Source: Phycisphaeraceae bacterium
Lineage (GTDB): Bacteria; Planctomycetota; Phycisphaerae; Phycisphaerales; SM1A02
Assembly: GCA_019636755.1 (NCBI GenBank)
Contig: JAHBWZ010000005.1
Coordinates: 62,001 to 126,000, forward strand
Direction of reading: 5' to 3'
Length of the DNA stretch: 64,000 bases
In this document: piece by piece, positions 27,221-54,876 of the stretch
Position numbering within the stretch: the stretch's first letter is position 1
Layout: every line of letters starts with the position of its first letter
The notes under the pieces: generated by a model
Database searches by the model: none
What the model saw: only the letters and a program-made list of their open reading frames with translations
What the model was told of the DNA's origin: nothing
Translations under genes and position numbers: made by a program

Positions 27221-30200
27221 CGAGCGGTCGGCGCGAGAAAGCCCGGCCGATTCTCGGCGCGAGACGGATCGGACAGCCAGGTCGGCGCCGATTCCCCTCG
27301 CATTTCCCGGAGGTACGCGCTGCCAAGGTCTCCGTCATCGCCGACCAGGGCCCGTCGCTGGCGCTCCGCATAGCGCACGCGCAGCGGAACCGCATCCCAG
27401 ATCCGCGCAACCGTCTCGTTGGACGCGGTGACGATCCGTGTCCCGTCCGGGCTGAAGGCGACGGAGCGGAGACCCAGGACCGTCGTGACAACGGAGCGCA
27501 GGTCGCTCTGGGTATTATCGAGTTCGATCAGCGGTTCGCCCGTGTCTGCATCCCAGACGCGCGCGGTCCCGTCCCAGGACGCGGTGACGATGCGCGTGCC
27601 GTCCGCGTCCATCGCGATCCCCATCACGCCGCCGGTGTGTCCGGCGAGAAGCAGGAGCAGGGCGCCGCTTGCGGCGTCCCAGACCCGCGCCGACGCGTCC
27701 CATGAGCCGGTCACGACGCGGGCGCCGTCTGGACTGAACGCGGCGCAGTGGATGCGCCCCGTGTGTCCGTGCAGTTCGGCGAGGACCGTTCCGGTCCCCG
27801 TATCCAGGATGCGCGGGGTGATCGCGTCGGGCGCCGAGACGACCCGCCGGCCGTCCGGGCTCAGCGCCGCGCCATACAGCTTTCCCTCGTGAATGGTCAG
27901 TTCGTTGACCAGTTGCCCCGTCGCCGGCTCCCACATGCGGAGCGTTCCATCCCAGCAGGCTGTCATGAGACGCAGGCCATCGGCACTGAACCCGGCGCTG
28001 GTGATCGGGGCGGTGTGACCACGCAGAGTGCGAACGGGGTGCTCCGCCTGGAGGTCGATGAGGTGCACCTGATCAGCGCCGCTCGCCGCCAGGCACCACC
28101 CATCCGGACTGAAGGCGACGGAGTGGATCGGTCCTCCCGGGTGGAACACCCGGACCGTCTGCCCGGTCCCGGCATCAAAGAGCCGCACGACACTGAGGGA
28201 CGCGGTCGCGATGGAACGGCCGTCCGGGCTGAACGAGACCCTCGAGACTTCGCGACCGTGCCCCGCCAGCACCTTGACGGGCAGGTCGCCGCTCACGTCC
28301 CACAGCCGCGCGACCCGGTCCGCGCCGCCGGTGAGGAGGCGCGTCCCGTCGTGGTTGAACGTGACCTCTGTCACGGCACCGGAGTGACCAGGCAGTTCAG
28401 CGATGCGTTCGCCGGTCCCGGGATGCCAGATCCTTACCGCGGCATCGGAGGAGGCGGTGGCGAGGCGTTTCCCGTCGGGACTGAACGCGATGGCGTTGAT
28501 GGGAGACCCGCCGGGGATCGTCTGCAGGCGTTCGCCCGTCTCCGCGTTCCAGATGTGCGCGATTCCCTCCCAGGACGCGGAGGCCACCAGTGCGCCGTCG
28601 GGACTGAACGCGACTGACGCGACCTCCCGTGATCCTGGTCGGCGAGGGCCTTCGTCGTGGACCAGGATCGCCATGAGGCTCCCTGTGCGTCGCTCCCAGA
28701 TGCGCGCCGTCCCGTCGCGCGCGGTCGTGACGAGGCGCGATCCGTCGGGACTGAACGCGCCGGTGAGGAGGGGGGCCTGGTGCTCGCGGAGCACATGCGC
28801 CGGCTCACCGGTGTCCGAGTTCCACAGCCGGGCCGTGCCGTCAGCTGACGTGGTAAGTACATGGGCGCCGTCCGGGCTGAAGTCTCCGTGAAGCACCTCG
28901 CTTTCGTGCCCGGTCAGCACCGCGAGCGGCGCGCCGCTGGACGCATCCCAGACCCGCGCGGTCCGATCCATCGATGCCGTGACGATGCGGGTCCCGTCCG
29001 GGCTGAACGCCGCCGTCCGGACCAGGTCACCATGCCCCGTGAAGGTCGCCAGCAGTCGGCCGGTCGCGGTCTCCCACAGGCGTGCCGTCCCATCCCACGA
29101 TGCGGTCACGATCCGTCGTCCGTCCGGGTCGAATGCGGCCGAGAGGACGGGCCCCCCGTGGCCGAGCAGTTCGGCCGTACTCGTGCCGGTCGCCGCGTCC
29201 CACACGCGCGCCGTCCCGTCCCGGGATGCGGTCACGATGCGTGTGCCGTCCGGGCTGAACCGGGCGGCGTCGACCGCTCCCTGGTGGATGTCGAGTGCCG
29301 TCAGACTCTGATCCACGGCGGCCTGGAGCCTGAACCACTCCCAGTTGCGCAGCGGACCGCGCGCCGCCGCAAGGCGATCCTGGACCCGGCGGTACTGCTT
29401 CTGTGCGAGCCAGGCGTCGGCCATCTGGATGTTCGCGAGGTACGCATGGCGCTCGATCGCCTGCGCGTGGGCGATTGCCTCGCGGCGCGCCTGGTCGGCC
29501 CGATCGCGTTCGCGCGTGGCGACAGCCTCAGCGGCCTCCGCGGCGGCCGCGCGATCGTCCGCGCGGCCTCGCTCCTGAGCCGCGATGCGCCACTGCCACG
29601 TGGCGATCGCGAGACCGGACAGCAGCGCGACGATCACGGTCGCGATGCCGCCGACCAGTGTCCGGTGACGCCGTGCGAACTTGGACACGCGGTACCACCG
29701 TGATTCCGGACCCGCGTCGAGCGGATCACCGGACAGATATCGCCGCACGTCGTCGGCCAGCGCCGCCGCGCTCGGATACCGCCGACGCCGGTCCTTGCGC
29801 ATCGCCCGAAGCGGAATCCACTCCAGTTCCCGGCGCAGGATGCCCGCCAGCTTCTCCCGTCCCGCCTGCCGCGCCCGGGCGATCGCCGCGCCGGTGGATG
29901 CGTCCATCGTGCTCACGCGGGTGCTCGGACGGGGCGGCTCGATCTCCCTGATGATGCGGCGGATCTCGTCGTATCCCGAGGCACGCAGCGTCCTGGCGTC
30001 GAAAGGAAGGGTGCCGCTGAGGAGTTCATAGAGCAGGACCCCGAGGGCGTAGACGTCGGTGCGCGTGTCGATGTCGACCGTGCCCATCTCGGCCTGCTCC
30101 GGGCTCATGTACTCGGGCGTGCCGATGAGCTGCCCGGTCTCCGTGAACACGGTCCGTTCCGTCAGCGTGTGGCTGAGCGCCTTCGCGACGCCGAAGTCGA

Positions 30201-34775: not shown

Positions 34776-34853
34776 CCATGTTCTGCGTGTCCGAACCCGG
34801 CCGGTTGTGCGTGTCCGAACCCGGCCCGAACCCGGCCGGTCCGAACCCGGCCG
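34776..34853 (+). repeat. 24-bp repeat family, locus A (after the P-type ATPase gene)
   Basis: A head CATGTTCTGCGTGTCCGAAC is followed by a second TGCGTGTCCGAACCCGG; the cores start at 34784 and 34808, 24 bp apart. Three further CGAACCCGGCC copies run up to the stop codon of the ATPase gene. The same unit occurs in opposite orientations on each side of the RAYT-like transposase at 52.2 and 54.4 kb. Confidence 0.85.
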
Positions 34854-37742
34854 TCAGGACGCGGCACCCGGTGACCGGAGCCGCTTGTGTACTTCCACCG
34901 CGACCAGCACCACCGGCGCCAGCAGCACGGTCATCAGCCAGGTGTCCGCTCGAAGCGGCTCCAGGCCGAGCAGGTGGCGGGTCGGGCCGAAGTGCATCGC
35001 GCCGATGTGGACCAGCAGCGAGACGACTGTCCCGAGCAGCAGCACCGGGTTCGACAGCAGGGGCTTACTGAAGATGGAGAGCGTCTCGGATCGACAGGCG
35101 CCCACGTGGAGCATCTTGAAGAGGACGAGCGCCGTGAGCGTGGCGCATTGTGCATAGGCCAGGTCGCTTCCCGCGTGGAGTTCGCGCGCGAACATGGCCA
35201 GCGCGACGGCGGCCATGAGGACGCCCGTGATGATCGTCCGCTCGACCAGGAGCCGTGACAGCAGGCCCTCACCCGGCGGGCGCGGCGGGGCGAGGAAGAG
35301 CGCCTCCTCGCCCGGCTCGAACGCAAGCGCCACGTCCTGGATCCCGTTCGTGACGACGTTCAGCCAGAGGATCTGCGCGGGCAGGAGCAGCAGCGGCAGT
35401 GATCCCGGTGGCAGCGGAATCATCCCGGTTCCCGCGAGCAGGAATGCGCCGAAGACGGCCAGCACGACGCCCACGCCCGTCGAGATGAGGAAATCCGTCG
35501 CCTTCCGGATGTTCGAGAACGCGGTCCGTCCCTCCTCGATCGCGGCATGAATCGTCGCGAAGTTGTCGTCCGCAAGGACCATCTCGCTTGCCTCGCGCGC
35601 GACATCGGTGCCTTCACGCCCCATGGCGCAGCCGATGTGCGCGCTCTTGAGCGCGGGTGCGTCGTTGACCCCGTCTCCGGTCACGGCAACGACTTCTCCC
35701 GCGCCGCGGAGCAGGGTCACGACCCGGAGCTTCTGCTGCGGGCTGACCCGGGCGAAGACGGAGGTCGTCCGGAGGCGCTCGGACAGCGCGTCGTCCGGGA
35801 GTTCCAGCAGGTCTGCGCCGCTCAGCGCGGCGGGCGGGTCCGTCGGCGCGGACATCGGATCCCGGCGCACGCCGATGCCGATCCGCGCCGCGATCGCGGT
35901 CGCGGTCGAGACGTGATCGCCCGTGCACATGATGGCGCGGATTCCGGCGCGACGCGCCTTCTCGATCGCCTCCGGGACACCCTCGCGCGGCGGATCCATC
36001 ATGCCGACGAGGCCGAGGAAGGCAAGGTCCGCCGGTTCCGCCCGCCGTGTCGATTCGACGGCGGCGGCGGACCGGCCCATCGCCAGCGCGAGTACGCGCA
36101 GGCCGTCACCGGCCATGCGATGCGCCTCGGCCAGGACGCGTCCCGGGTCGAGCGGTCGGGTGCGGACCGGCGCTGCCTCCGCGTATGCGGCGTGCGCATC
36201 GGTCACGGCACCATCGCAGGCCGTCGCCGCCGGTCCCTCGACCATGGCGCTGCACATGGCAAGAACCCGCTCCGGTGCGCCCTTGACGAACACGACGAGC
36301 CCGGTGCCATCGCTCCGGCCCTCCGCGCCGCCGGCGTCCTCGCGCCCCGGTGCGCGGTTGACCGACGCCGAGAACTGGCGCTCCGACTCGAACGGAACGT
36401 CCGCGACACGCGGCCAGGCGTCCAGCACATCCTCGCGGGGAAGCCCTGCCTTGATCGCGGCGACGAGCAGCGCGACCTCGGTCGGGTCGCCGTGCGGAAT
36501 GAGCGAGCCTCCGGCCGCGTGCGGTTCGCTGCGCACGTCCGACTCGTTCGCAAGCAGCCCGGCGAGCAGAAGGTGATGCAGTGGGCCGCGCCCGTCCGGT
36601 CGGACCGGCGTCCCGGCGGGCGTGGCAAGCGTGCCATGCGCCGAGAGCGCCGCGCCGGTCAGGTCGAATGTCTGCTCGTCCGACGCGCCCGGACACCAGA
36701 GGCGCTGCACCGTCATGCGGTTCTCGGTGAGCGTCCCGGTCTTGTCGGTCACGATCACCGTGCAGCTGCCGAGCGTTTCGACCGCCGGCAGCCGCCGGAT
36801 GACCGCGTTCCGTTTCGCCATGCGGCGCACGCTGACGGCGAGGGCGACGGTCATGACGATGGGCAGTCCCTCCGGAATCGCGGCGACGGCGATGGCGACG
36901 GCGGCGAGGAACATGTCGGTGACGGGAATTCCCTGCAGCAGCCCCGCGACGAAGGCGACCGCCGAGGCGATGACGATCACGGCGCTCACGCGCCGGCCGA
37001 ACCGCTGCATGCGGGCCTGCAGCGGCGTCTCCGCGCGTTCCGTCTCCCGCATGCGCCGCGCGATCTGCCCGATCTGCGTCGCGGCCCCGGTCGCGACCAC
37101 GACGCCGCGCCCGCGACCGCTTGCGACCGCGGTGCCGAGGAAGGCCATGTTCCGGCGGTCGGCGACGGGCAGTTCCGGACCCGCGCCGATCGGATCGACG
37201 GTCCGGCCGACCGCGACGGACTCGCCTGTGAGCGCCGAGTCATCCGTGCGCAGATGAGACTGCTCGAGGATCCGCAGATCCGCGGGGACGAAATCGCCGC
37301 TCTCCAGGAGGACGATGTCGCCGGGCACCAGGTCCCGGGACGGGATCTCGCGACGTTCATCGCCGCGGCGGACCGTGGCGGTCGGCGTGACCAGTCGGGC
37401 GAGGGCCTGCATCGCGTTCTCGGCCCGGTACTCCTGCGTGAACCCGATGATCGCATTGATCAGGAGCACCAGGGCGATCACGATCGCATCGGCGACATGG
37501 GCGGTGACGACCGTGATGAGCAGCGCCATGAGCAGGATCGCGATGAGCGGACTCGCGAACTGGTGCAGCAGGATCGCCCATCGGCTCGTGCGCTCCGTCC
37601 CCCGGATCTCGTTCGGTCCGAAGCGGACGGCGCGCCGGGCCGCCTCATCGGCGGAGAGTCCCGCCCGCCCGGTGCCCAGCGCGTCCAGCGCCGCGTCCGG
37701 TGCCAGTGCATGCCAGGTCGTCGACCGAGTTCTCTCTTCCAT
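34854..37742 (-). CDS. P-type (type II) cation-transporting ATPase, CtpF-like
   Basis: The 962-residue membrane pump has the full type II layout: cation ATPase N-terminal domain (1-60), TM1-2, actuator domain with TGES (172-175), M4 with PEGLP (290-294), phosphorylated Asp333 in DKTGTLTE, nucleotide-binding KGAPERVL, hinge TGDGVNDAPAL, and six C-terminal helices. M6 reads LWLNVVTNGIQDVALAFEP: the D of the Ca-pump TDG motif is replaced by N, as in mycobacterial CtpF-like pumps ending in FEPxE. The ion is therefore uncertain (Ca2+, Na+ or other). It starts 86 bp after PPK2 on the same strand and may be co-expressed with the sensor kinase cassette. Confidence 0.92.
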   Translation of the reverse strand: MEERTRSTTWHALAPDAALDALGTGRAGLSADEAARRAVRFGPNEIRGTERTSRWAILLHQFASPLIAILLMALLITVVTAHVADAIVIALVLLINAIIGFTQEYRAENAMQALARLVTPTATVRRGDERREIPSRDLVPGDIVLLESGDFVPADLRILEQSHLRTDDSALTGESVAVGRTVDPIGAGPELPVADRRNMAFLGTAVASGRGRGVVVATGAATQIGQIARRMRETERAETPLQARMQRFGRRVSAVIVIASAVAFVAGLLQGIPVTDMFLAAVAIAVAAIPEGLPIVMTVALAVSVRRMAKRNAVIRRLPAVETLGSCTVIVTDKTGTLTENRMTVQRLWCPGASDEQTFDLTGAALSAHGTLATPAGTPVRPDGRGPLHHLLLAGLLANESDVRSEPHAAGGSLIPHGDPTEVALLVAAIKAGLPREDVLDAWPRVADVPFESERQFSASVNRAPGREDAGGAEGRSDGTGLVVFVKGAPERVLAMCSAMVEGPAATACDGAVTDAHAAYAEAAPVRTRPLDPGRVLAEAHRMAGDGLRVLALAMGRSAAAVESTRRAEPADLAFLGLVGMMDPPREGVPEAIEKARRAGIRAIMCTGDHVSTATAIAARIGIGVRRDPMSAPTDPPAALSGADLLELPDDALSERLRTTSVFARVSPQQKLRVVTLLRGAGEVVAVTGDGVNDAPALKSAHIGCAMGREGTDVAREASEMVLADDNFATIHAAIEEGRTAFSNIRKATDFLISTGVGVVLAVFGAFLLAGTGMIPLPPGSLPLLLLPAQILWLNVVTNGIQDVALAFEPGEEALFLAPPRPPGEGLLSRLLVERTIITGVLMAAVALAMFARELHAGSDLAYAQCATLTALVLFKMLHVGACRSETLSIFSKPLLSNPVLLLGTVVSLLVHIGAMHFGPTRHLLGLEPLRADTWLMTVLLAPVVLVAVEVHKRLRSPGAAS

Positions 37743-52214: not shown

Positions 52215-52287
52215 CCGGATTCGGACACGCACAACCGGGCAGGTCCGGACACGCACAACGGGCCGGATTCGGACACGCAGAACATGG
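52215..52287 (-). repeat. 24-bp repeat family, locus B (left of the RAYT-like gene)
   Basis: Read on the reverse strand, the array starts CCCATGTTCTGCGTGTCCG at 52287 and continues with two more TGCGTGTCCG cores. The cores (CGGACACGCA on the forward strand) start at 52222, 52246 and 52270, an exact 24-bp period. The head faces the transposase, mirroring locus C on the other side. Confidence 0.9.
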
Positions 52288-52585
52288 GCTGATCGGGGAG
52301 TCCAGGGAAGCCCGGGGCTCCGGGGTGGTCGGGTGGGGCTGCCGTGACGCTTCCCGGCCCTCAGGCATTTCTTCTGCTTTCCCGGAGTTCGGCCGACGCA
52401 ACGGTAGATTCGCCTTCGATGTCGACTCGATCGCGTGGCGGATGAGTGTCGTCCGCACGATCGAGCGATCACCGCCCACAGAGCTCCGTCGCCGGCGGGG
52501 TGATCCACCCCGGGACGCGCGATCGCCGCGCCCAGGCTCCGGAGCAACGGACGGCAACCCGGCTCGGGCACAGGAGGACTCCGGC
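52288..52585 (+). promoter_or_regulatory. Leader region of the RAYT-like gene
   Basis: The ~300 bp between repeat locus B and the transposase hold a GGTAGATT box (52403-52410), identical to the xseB -10. An ATG 8 nt later opens an eight-codon frame (52419-52445). The transposase itself starts about 165 nt downstream with AGGAGG. A leader peptide is possible but unproven. Confidence 0.35.
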
Positions 52586-54043
52586 ATGGCCATCCCACGG
52601 CACGAACTCGTTGATGAGACCGTCTCCGGGCTCTACCACTGCGTCTCACGCTGCGTTCGGCAGGCATACCTGATCGGGCCGGATCCTCTGATGCGACGGC
52701 CAGCCGACAACCACCGCCGCGACTGGATGATCGAGCGGCTGGTCCAGCTCACCGACGCCTTCGCCATCGATGTCGCCGGGCTCGCCATCATGAGCAACCA
52801 CTTCCACCTCATCCTCCGGACGCTCCCGGAGGTGGTCGCCACCTGGTCCGATGCCGAGGTTGCCTACCGGTGGCTGCTCCTGCATCCGCTGAAGCGGTTC
52901 CGTCGCCGGCTGGGTATCAAGGACAGTGCTGCGCCCACCGAGGTCGAGGTCTATCGTCTCCTGATGAACCCAGGTGAGATGCGCACCCGTCGGAATCGGC
53001 TCGCCTCGCTCTCCTGGTTCATGAAGGAACTCAAGGAGTGGCTGGCGAAGCGTGCGAATCGCGAGGACGAGAGGACTGGTGCATTCTGGGAGGAGCGGTT
53101 CAAGAGCTACCGCATCCTGGATGACTACGGCCTCATGCTCTGTGCGAGCTACGTCGATCTCAATCCCGTTCGCGCGGGGTTGGCGACCGATCCTCTCGGT
53201 GCCCGGTACACCTCCGTAGAGATGCACGCCCGGCGGATGACTTCACGTTCGACTGACCCGCTTGATCCGGCATCCGGCTATGCATTCTGGAAGCGTGTCG
53301 CTGAGGCGCCTGACTCGACCGGTCGCATTGATCGAGGCGATGAACTGAACGCGTTCATCGCGCAGTTCGAGTCGGCGGCCTTCTCACCGGCGATGCCGTG
53401 CCGACGGGAGCCGCTGGGGATTGCCGACCGGTGGAGCATGACACACGCGGGCGGAGAGACCTCCGATCCGGTCAAGGCGTCAGCGACCGGCGCGGCTGTG
53501 CCGGCAGGGGCACCGGCGACATTGCCCGGTCCCACACGCGGGATGCCCGGTGCGGGTCGGGCCCGGACCGTCGATGCGGAAGGTCAGCGACACAGGCGCC
53601 GCCGGCCGCCGCAGCACCGCCGCGAGCCCCCACTGGCGCGTGCGGGATCGATCCCGCCCCCGCTGGCACTCGCGTCGTTCAGCCTTGCAGACTACTTCCG
53701 GCGTCTGCGAACGATGGCCGAGGTGATCCGCAGCAGCGCGTTCGCCGAGGAACTCCCACGCCGGCCCGCGGATGACGGCGCGTCTCAGGGCCCGGGCACG
53801 CCCGCCGCGTCAGCGGTGCGGACGACCGACGCGCCGCCCGATCCGACGTCGGTCGGGGACGCGGTCGTGCGACTGGCGGTCGGCCTGACCGGCCGGATGC
53901 CGGTGCGCTCCATGAAGGCGCTCCGCGCGATGCTGATCGCGGCCCGGATGTGGGGGACGGCGGTCGGTACGCATGCCTCGATGCTCCTGGAGCGAAAACG
54001 TCGACGACGGGACTTCATCGTGATGGCGCTGCGGCCGCGCTGA
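52586..54043 (+). CDS. RAYT-like (REP-associated, IS200-type) transposase lacking the usual Tyr
   Basis: The 485-residue protein starts at ATG 52586 with AGGAGG 8 nt upstream. The N-terminal Y1/IS200-like domain (1-215) has GLYHCVSRCVRQAYL, the HUH motif MSNHFHLIL (His72, His74), SWFMKELKEWLAKRANREDE followed by RTGAFWEERFKS, and YVDLNPVRAGLA. In RAYTs the helix after the LK carries the nucleophilic Tyr (LKxRYxRYFN); here that stretch is LKEWLAKRANRE, with no Tyr. The C-terminal ~270 residues are low-complexity Pro/Arg/Ala ending in a basic segment (LLERKRRRRDFIV). It is flanked by inverted copies of a 24-bp repeat array. It may be a domesticated DNA-binding protein. Confidence 0.85.
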   Translation: MAIPRHELVDETVSGLYHCVSRCVRQAYLIGPDPLMRRPADNHRRDWMIERLVQLTDAFAIDVAGLAIMSNHFHLILRTLPEVVATWSDAEVAYRWLLLHPLKRFRRRLGIKDSAAPTEVEVYRLLMNPGEMRTRRNRLASLSWFMKELKEWLAKRANREDERTGAFWEERFKSYRILDDYGLMLCASYVDLNPVRAGLATDPLGARYTSVEMHARRMTSRSTDPLDPASGYAFWKRVAEAPDSTGRIDRGDELNAFIAQFESAAFSPAMPCRREPLGIADRWSMTHAGGETSDPVKASATGAAVPAGAPATLPGPTRGMPGAGRARTVDAEGQRHRRRRPPQHRREPPLARAGSIPPPLALASFSLADYFRRLRTMAEVIRSSAFAEELPRRPADDGASQGPGTPAASAVRTTDAPPDPTSVGDAVVRLAVGLTGRMPVRSMKALRAMLIAARMWGTAVGTHASMLLERKRRRRDFIVMALRPR

Positions 54044-54372
54044 CCGGGCGACCGCCCGCATCCGACCTCGCGCTGAACGCGCTCGAGGCCGAAGACGGGC
54101 GCCCCGGTCGGTCCTGGCCGCCTGCAGGTGGAGGAGATCCTCCCGGGCAGATCCGGCGACCGTGACCGCCAGGCCCCGCCCGGATGGGATCCGGTGCGAC
54201 CGGACGATGTCTCTGCGCGCATGCGCCGTGATGGCGCGCCGTGGCGCAGCCCAAGAAGACCGACTGAACTGCGAGCGTGCATGCGGCGCTCACCTCGTGA
54301 TGCTCCGTCCGCACCCGGATCTGACGGTGCAGGGCGGTGGAAGCGACGCACGCTTCTCCAGCCAGCCTCGCT
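54044..54372. other. Intergenic region right of the RAYT-like gene
   Basis: About 330 bp between the transposase stop and repeat locus C. No ORF with support and no clear palindrome. Confidence 0.3.
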
Positions 54373-54570
54373 TCGCCATGTTCTGCGTGTCCGAACCAGG
54401 CGGATGTGCGTGTCCGGATCAGGCTGGATCTGCGTGTCCGGAGCCGCCCTTCGCCATGTTCTGCGTGTCCGAACCAGGCCGGATGTGCGTGTCCGAACCA
54501 GGCGGATGTGCGTGTCCGGATCAGGCGGGATCTGCGTGTCCGGAGTCGCGCGCGGAGCCGCGTGTCCGGA
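54373..54570 (+). repeat. 24-bp repeat family, locus C (right of the RAYT-like gene)
   Basis: Seven exact TGCGTGTCCG cores start at 54384, 54407, 54431, 54462, 54486, 54509 and 54533, and a weaker eighth at about 54559. Spacing is 23-24 bp within two super-units, each opening with the head CGCCATGTTCTGCGTGTCCG; the heads are 78 bp apart. The orientation is opposite to locus B, so both heads point at the transposase. If translated, the units read MFCVSEPG..., but no ribosome-binding site supports coding. Confidence 0.9.
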
Positions 54571-54696
54571 GCCGCGCGGAGCTGCGCGTGCGTGCCTGGC
54601 TCATGGGTGCGACCGGGACGGTGGAGGTGTCCGGAACCCGGGACGGCGCAGTCTGCCGCAGGCCGGGGGCCGCGAACCGCCGACTTCGACGGGCCG

Positions 54697-54876
54697 TCGA
54701 CCTCGCGAACCTCGTCGACCTCGCGAACCTCGTCGACCGCGCGAACCTCGCCGACCTCGCGAACCTCGCTGACCTTGCGGACCTCACGGATCCCGTCGAC
54801 CCCGCCGACCCCGTCGACCCCGCCGACCCCGCCGACCCCGCCGACCTCGCCGACCTCGCCGACTTCGCGGACCCTC
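54697..54876 (+). repeat. 9-bp tandem repeat (about 19-20 units)
   Basis: The units are GACCTCGCG/AACCTCGTC in the left half and GACCCCGCC/GACCCCGTC in the right half, with GACCTCGCC at the end. Because the period is three codons, three forward frames stay open and translate as tripeptide repeats (ADLANL..., DPADPV...). It ends 12 bp before the stop codon of recG and belongs to no gene I can support. Confidence 0.85.

Follow-up and report, generated by a model that had tools for sequence, protein, structure and literature searches.

The window (the whole 64,000-nucleotide stretch analysed here, G000:C16:62001-126000, from a genome of 4.11 Mb in 20 contigs) probably carries an autonomous, insertion sequence-like element of the TIRtron kind, in which a Y1 (HuH) transposase of the subclass 2.3 type lies between outward-facing arrays of a core of about 10 bp, gTGNNTG[T/G]CC. 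At the level of sequence, comparison among genomes showed the gain or loss of a unit and of an array, the layout, an association of arrays with transposase, the co-divergence of the two, and units that give no hairpin signal. The features of the window on which this reading draws are as follows:

52215..52286, minus strand: left array of three units, its head (52270-52286) toward the gene and its outer edge CCGGATTCGG at 52215
52586..54043, plus strand: RAYT-like Y1 transposase of 485 aa, with NHFH at residue 71, FWE at 167 and YVDLNP at 189
54377..54576, plus strand: right array, in which seven units are exact and one (54559) is degenerate, its head at 54377
52215..54526, no strand assigned: minimal mobile unit of about 2.3 kb, common to C18:53.4-55.7 kb
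34777..34853, plus strand: solo array of a head unit and one tail unit, followed by decayed CCGGCCCGAACCCGG repeats

A preliminary description of this DNA had placed inverted arrays on either side of the transposase with their heads pointing inward, and exact copies of TGCGTGTCCG confirmed that arrangement: three lie on the minus strand (52222, 52246 and 52270) and seven on the plus strand (54384, 54407, 54431, 54462, 54486, 54509 and 54533), with a copy carrying one mismatch at 54559. The head CATGTTCTGCGTGTCCG occupies the gene-facing end of both arrays (52270-52286 on the minus strand, 54377 on the plus strand), and a 78-bp internal duplication in the right array (54364-54520) has produced a second head at 54455. 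Units are spaced by 24 and 24 bp in the left array and by 23, 24, 31, 24, 23 and 24 bp in the right. The window holds 13 exact copies of TGCGTGTCCG, ten of them at the transposase arrays, against 0.28 expected from base composition. When one mismatch was allowed, 23 copies were counted across the window against a shuffle mean of 13.6, a number matched by one in 100 shuffles; the strong evidence therefore lies in clustering and orientation. Genome-wide, TGCGTGTCCG occurs exactly 61 times, compared with 15 occurrences of a reversed control pattern, and these copies divide into 19 in two transposase units, 17 in six solo arrays and 25 that are single and scattered. Two other repeats were seen in the window: a 9/18-bp tandem repeat of the GACCTCGCG type (54698-54873), which follows the right array and precedes the next gene, and a 126-bp repeat at 28942-29260 (2.5 copies, 72% matching) that is perhaps coding.

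The transposase frame opens with an ATG at 52586, with AGGAGG ahead of it. Its product contains the HuH and Y---NP motifs of RAYTs and matched the NCBIfam model REP_Tyr_transpos (NF047646) with E=5.4e-11 and 42.6 bits, which bears out the earlier naming of a RAYT-like transposase, though at a score below the curated cut-off of 80. Pfam Y1_Tnp matched the protein at E=0.022, under the Pfam cut-off. Each of these two models matched 17 of the 19 aligned family members, REP_Tyr_transpos with E up to 0.001 and Y1_Tnp with E up to 1. According to the accessible text of Quentin et al. 2018 (PMC6006769), subclass 2.3 of TnpAY1 is marked by NHYH, WE and YVDLNP motifs and a median length of 325 aa. The window protein shares WE and YVDLNP, the insertion that lengthens the distance from HuH to tyrosine, and a long tail; it differs in reading NHFH instead of NHYH and in its 485 aa. 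From this comparison of motifs and length, the protein resembles subclass 2.3. Plasmid records gave 16 matches, ten of which were retrieved and aligned with the window protein; in these ten, HuH at position 70 reads NHYH in five, NHTH in four and NHLH in one, FWE stands at 161 and YVDLNP at 183. The closest plasmid relatives are 316-364 aa long and come mostly from Alteromonadales and Vibrionales, and the named relatives of the protein come from one Phycisphaerales assembly (four contigs) and one Planctomycetia assembly (a single contig), which suggests a planctomycete as the source of the window. A profile-profile comparison (hhalign) of the transposase profile A1 with E. coli RayT gave a probability of 7.6% (E 0.0046), the aligned stretch being the Y motif. 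PHROGs returned no match to the transposase, and the two solved structures matched by A1 (E 0.37 and 0.61) were regarded as chance. Structure prediction from a five-row alignment gave a low-confidence model (pLDDT 43, pTM 0.30), which we count against our preferred explanation.

Evidence that the unit moves as a whole came from a second copy in the same genome (C18:53811-55265), whose protein is identical to the window transposase. Aligned with each other, the copies on C16 and C18 differ by one base outside the arrays. Their agreement starts at the CCGGATTCGG edge at 52215 and stops at about 54526 in the right array, and the flanks beyond the two units are unrelated. As the identity ends within the arrays, we take these to be the ends of a recently moved element of about 2.3 kb. 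Unit counts differ between the copies, with 3+7 (left and right) in the window and 4+5 on C18. An insertion sequence is expected to occur as a whole unit at more than one site, or to be gained or lost, and this is what we found; the whole unit thus seems mobile, a point that the preliminary description had missed. Two further pairs were found within this genome. C14:318744 and C15:18204 agree at 86.8% over 1536 bp and are an older duplicate. C14:527107 and C18:123002 (L046 and L047; 526.7-528.2 kb and 122.5-124.1 kb) are 99.93% identical over 1463 bp; their protein has neither the first histidine of HuH nor the catalytic tyrosine, and they carry a single array, on the left side and reading inward. 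This pair, with its missing catalytic residues and lone inward array, counts against the preferred explanation; our guess is that the enzyme of another copy moved it in trans.

Sites with and without the element were compared in the sister genus g23, because the window's genus had no second species in the sample. One genome of g23, G245, has three relatives of the transposase. For its unit on C3, both flanks were found in order on one contig in all four congeners compared (G259, G179, G215 and G199, with G144 and G255 left out), separated by 638, 273, 194 and 3026 bp, respectively, whereas in G245 the same blocks are 1618-1773 bp apart. In none of the four was a transposase relative found at E<=1e-15; two of them are less than 92% complete. 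G245 also carries a run of 12 cores, one of them variant, at C9:39226-39669 (L135 2727-3170), and in G259 and G179, the two congeners aligned here, the corresponding site lacks this array. The C9 array lies inside a 537-codon open reading frame, and all 11 of its spacings are multiples of three, so it is tolerated in frame. The flanks of the C58 unit (L138 2560-4122) are conserved to within about 30 bp of the arrays on the left and 60-100 bp on the right; in G144 about 163 kb separates them, and in five other congeners they fall on separate contigs, which places this unit at a rearrangement breakpoint. The right flank of the C15 unit of G245 matched nowhere. The congener alignments were too diverged for exact joints or a target duplication to be read. 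As far as alignment can tell, these comparisons show that one unit and one solo array were gained or lost within g23.

Arrays with the window's core also stand in the genome without the transposase gene, at C6:47581, C12:483119, C16:96784 (window 34784), C18:24389, C18:24677 and C18:44276, with two to four units each. The polarity is head-first in all six, as at all four ends of the two transposase units, and the solo array in the window lies just beyond the stop of an open reading frame on the minus strand (34854-37742). The arrays at C18:24389 and C18:24677 have flanks in common and may stem from duplication of a single locus. At C15:180045 there is an array of a different core, TGCCTGTCC, with seven units. 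REPIN-like pairs were rejected, as all six of these solo arrays keep a single orientation each.

The preliminary description had also set this repeat apart from the hairpin REP, and the folding tests bore it out. We tried reading each unit as a hairpin whose stem is CCGGTT...AACCGG and whose loop holds the core, and this failed over 165 units at 26 loci: against a control that swapped right flanks among loci, stems spanning the core were not clearly longer (z=1.3, p=0.10), and the folding energy was not lower either (z=-0.6). Showing no hairpin signal, the units stand apart from REPs and, judged on that signal alone, do not have the GT[AG]G-hairpin form. This bears on the reading closest to the known behaviour of RAYTs, a REPtron proper, in which the RAYT would be domesticated and immobile and the arrays would be its REPs, each moved individually in trans. 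Such a reading would suit the diverged relatives, present at low copy number per genome, and the common solo arrays of the resident core. We nevertheless consider it unlikely, given that the whole unit has a duplicate whose identity to it stops inside the arrays, that a whole unit was gained or lost between congeners, and that the units are not hairpins.

The layout recurs in the relatives. At 44 distinct loci (L103, a short fragment, and L069 left out; loci at contig ends kept), the core TGNNTG[T/G]CC reads outward 180 times and inward 12 times, in a test that is partly circular since the earlier loci had supplied the pattern; the 16 loci found later give, by themselves, 33 outward and two inward. 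Counted per locus, 33 of the 44 have an outward excess and one an inward excess, and ten are tied; the ten loci with no orientation excess count against the preferred explanation. The core reads outward on both sides at 23/44 loci and at none of 718 random positions, and inward on both sides at 0/44 loci and 11/718 random positions. In a motif-free test, an inverted 8-mer occurs at least three times on both sides at 11 of 63 loci (duplicates included; nine places when repeats of one place are merged) as against 0 of 1565 random positions, and the direct arrangement was found at two of the 63. The profile over 26 loci reads gTGNNTG[T/G]CCnnnnT. Unit spacing in the relatives runs from 14 to over 100 bp, and we therefore rejected the strict 24-bp period that had earlier been offered as the defining trait; what is conserved is the linear core. 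At ten plasmid loci, a looser pattern (TGNNTG[T/G]C) gave 37 outward and ten inward copies, with eight of the ten loci leaning outward (p=0.11; two of the ten are near copies), and the strict pattern repeats only at L075 and L076. In another family, the relatives in G035 at L100 and L112 have inverted arrays of GGTGTCCAGGCCCCGG and GGTGGCCAGGCCCCGGCGA, in which only the TG[T/G]CC half is kept; the core was not seen at L097, L099, L111 and L114 of the same family.

Whether arrays follow the transposase across genomes was the check proposed at the outset, and a survey of 301 genomes of the order (transposase by profile A1, arrays by a triple-core pattern) found the two to be linked. The transposase was detected in 19 genomes, triple-core arrays in 16 and both in nine, so that arrays occur in 9/19 genomes with the enzyme and 7/282 without it (Fisher p=1.7e-8); by genus, the figures are 8/15 and 3/132 (p=2e-7). 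A backward control pattern matched in three of the 301 genomes. Among the seven array-bearing genomes that lack the enzyme, G023 and G179 appear similar on visual inspection and fall in genera with the enzyme. The remaining five (G041, G118, G159, G209 and G234) seem, by eye, to carry other repeats, and setting aside these genomes, sorted in this way, gives p = 1e-10. Ten of the 19 enzyme-bearing genomes, five of them in another family, have no strict triple array, and this we count against the preferred explanation. Enzyme-bearing genomes hold 240 of the 266 pattern matches (overlapping matches counted apart), and transposase and array numbers correlate with a Spearman coefficient of 0.50, uncorrected for kinship and with copies counted to six per genome. 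In all nine genomes with both, some arrays among the matches listed lie away from every detected transposase. The arrays among the matches listed mostly show the core of the resident enzyme, GGACACCCA in G245 and GGACAGGCA in G138 and G229; G108:C192 and G054:C15 do not plainly fit this rule.

Core and protein diverge together. Distances between cores and between proteins are correlated (Mantel r=0.33, p=2e-4) over 25 of the 26 loci, one having no usable protein, and the nearest protein has the same core at 17 of the 25 loci, compared with 4.9 expected; common descent contributes to this co-divergence. Orientation, association and co-divergence together weigh against the reading that the arrays are ordinary slippage satellites and that recombination between solo arrays copied the unit, with no action of the transposase. 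Varying array lengths, solo arrays that could recombine, the C58 unit of G245 at a breakpoint relative to six congeners and the two copies of a unit with no catalytic residues all speak for such a process. It leaves unexplained, however, the outward orientation in 44 relatives, the co-divergence of core and protein, and the association across genomes, including arrays far from detected transposases in all nine genomes that have both, and we regard it as quite improbable. The least credible alternative is that the arrays are operators through which the protein controls its own gene: the left array does precede the start codon by about 300 bp, but an array of equal or greater length follows the stop codon and solo arrays stand far from any copy of the gene.

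For the insertion sequence-like element that we favour, we envisage that the transposase binds the core, perhaps with several molecules per array, and would pair the two array ends; the tyrosine would then cut and rejoin single-stranded DNA, so that the unit moves. Array length may shift through slippage or recombination, and solo arrays could be copies, either one-ended or decayed, that the transposase has spread or left in place, as REPs supposedly are by RAYTs. Y1 elements of the IS200 type have asymmetric ends; the inverted, symmetric ends of the present unit are unlike these, which we also count against the preferred explanation. A bolder version of this explanation is conceivable, though less likely than not: a distinct self-mobile family built on class-2 (RAYT-type) Y1 transposases, whose enzyme would read arrays of a linear core at inverted ends instead of a hairpin. 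A HuH enzyme acting on single strands would then work with symmetric, iteron-like ends that may tune activity by their length, and solo arrays would spread as one-ended satellites, sometimes in frame within genes. Such a family would stand, still mobile, between elements of the IS200 type and RAYTs that have been domesticated. If the favoured explanation is correct, the subclass 2.3 group gains a defined DNA partner and evidence for whole-unit movement; the natural enzyme-core pairs TGCGTGTCC, TGCCTGTCC, TGGGTGTCC, TGTGTGTCC and TGCATGGCC could be swapped to map recognition; and the passage of Y1 enzymes from hairpin ends to dispersed repeats, and with it the origin of REP-like repeats, becomes testable.

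Among known systems, the unit is like a REPtron in having a Y1 enzyme whose gene is accompanied by cognate inverted repeats, copies of which are also scattered through the genome; it differs in units that give no hairpin signal and in a core unlike GT[AG]G. Beside the E. coli rayT gene, the core had no match beyond chance. In the accessible text of PMC6006769, REPs carry GT[AG]G together with a hairpin, RAYTs are presented as domesticated and as possible agents of REP spread, and no REP-like sequences were found flanking subclass 2.3. With IS200/IS605 the unit has in common a Y1 HuH enzyme and movement as a whole, whereas those elements, in the same text, have subterminal hairpins and Y---Q in place of the inverted linear arrays and Y---NP seen here (PMC6006769). 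A search of open-licence literature returned no tandem array ends with a head unit, no core for subclass 2.3 and no mobility at the level of the unit, and the core searched as text gave, among the matches listed, no title on such repeats.

The closest known kind is the TIRtron/TIRYT, of which our array-ended, insertion sequence-like element is a variant. As presented in the accessible part of Di Nocera et al. 2013 (PMC3733652), a TIRtron consists of a RAYT-like gene bounded by inverted repeats that are not REPs and that in some cases occur as clusters or dimers; the repeats form genome families, some sharing the motif GGGGWSAS and some being self-complementary. The preliminary suggestion of a new type of RAYT-repeat system is therefore not supported in that form, non-REP inverted repeats around RAYT-like genes having already been described there. 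Of 26 TIRYTs, 20 were placed in subclass 2.1 (PMC6006769, accessible text). The window unit likewise has inverted repeats, of a kind unrelated to GTAG REPs, on both sides of a RAYT-like Y1 gene (PMC3733652, same part). Some forms of GGGGWSAS, GGGGACAG among them, contain the GGACA half of the reversed core; in relatives this reversed core reads GGACAGGCA or GGACACCCA, preceded in some arrays by GG, and in the window it reads CGGACACGCA, which does not fit GGGGWSAS, a motif common to some TIRs only. What distinguishes the window unit from TIRtrons, as far as that part of PMC3733652 describes them, is that its ends repeat a linear core in tandem, starting with a head on the gene side, where theirs are terminal inverted repeats, and that it adds comparative evidence of unit movement.
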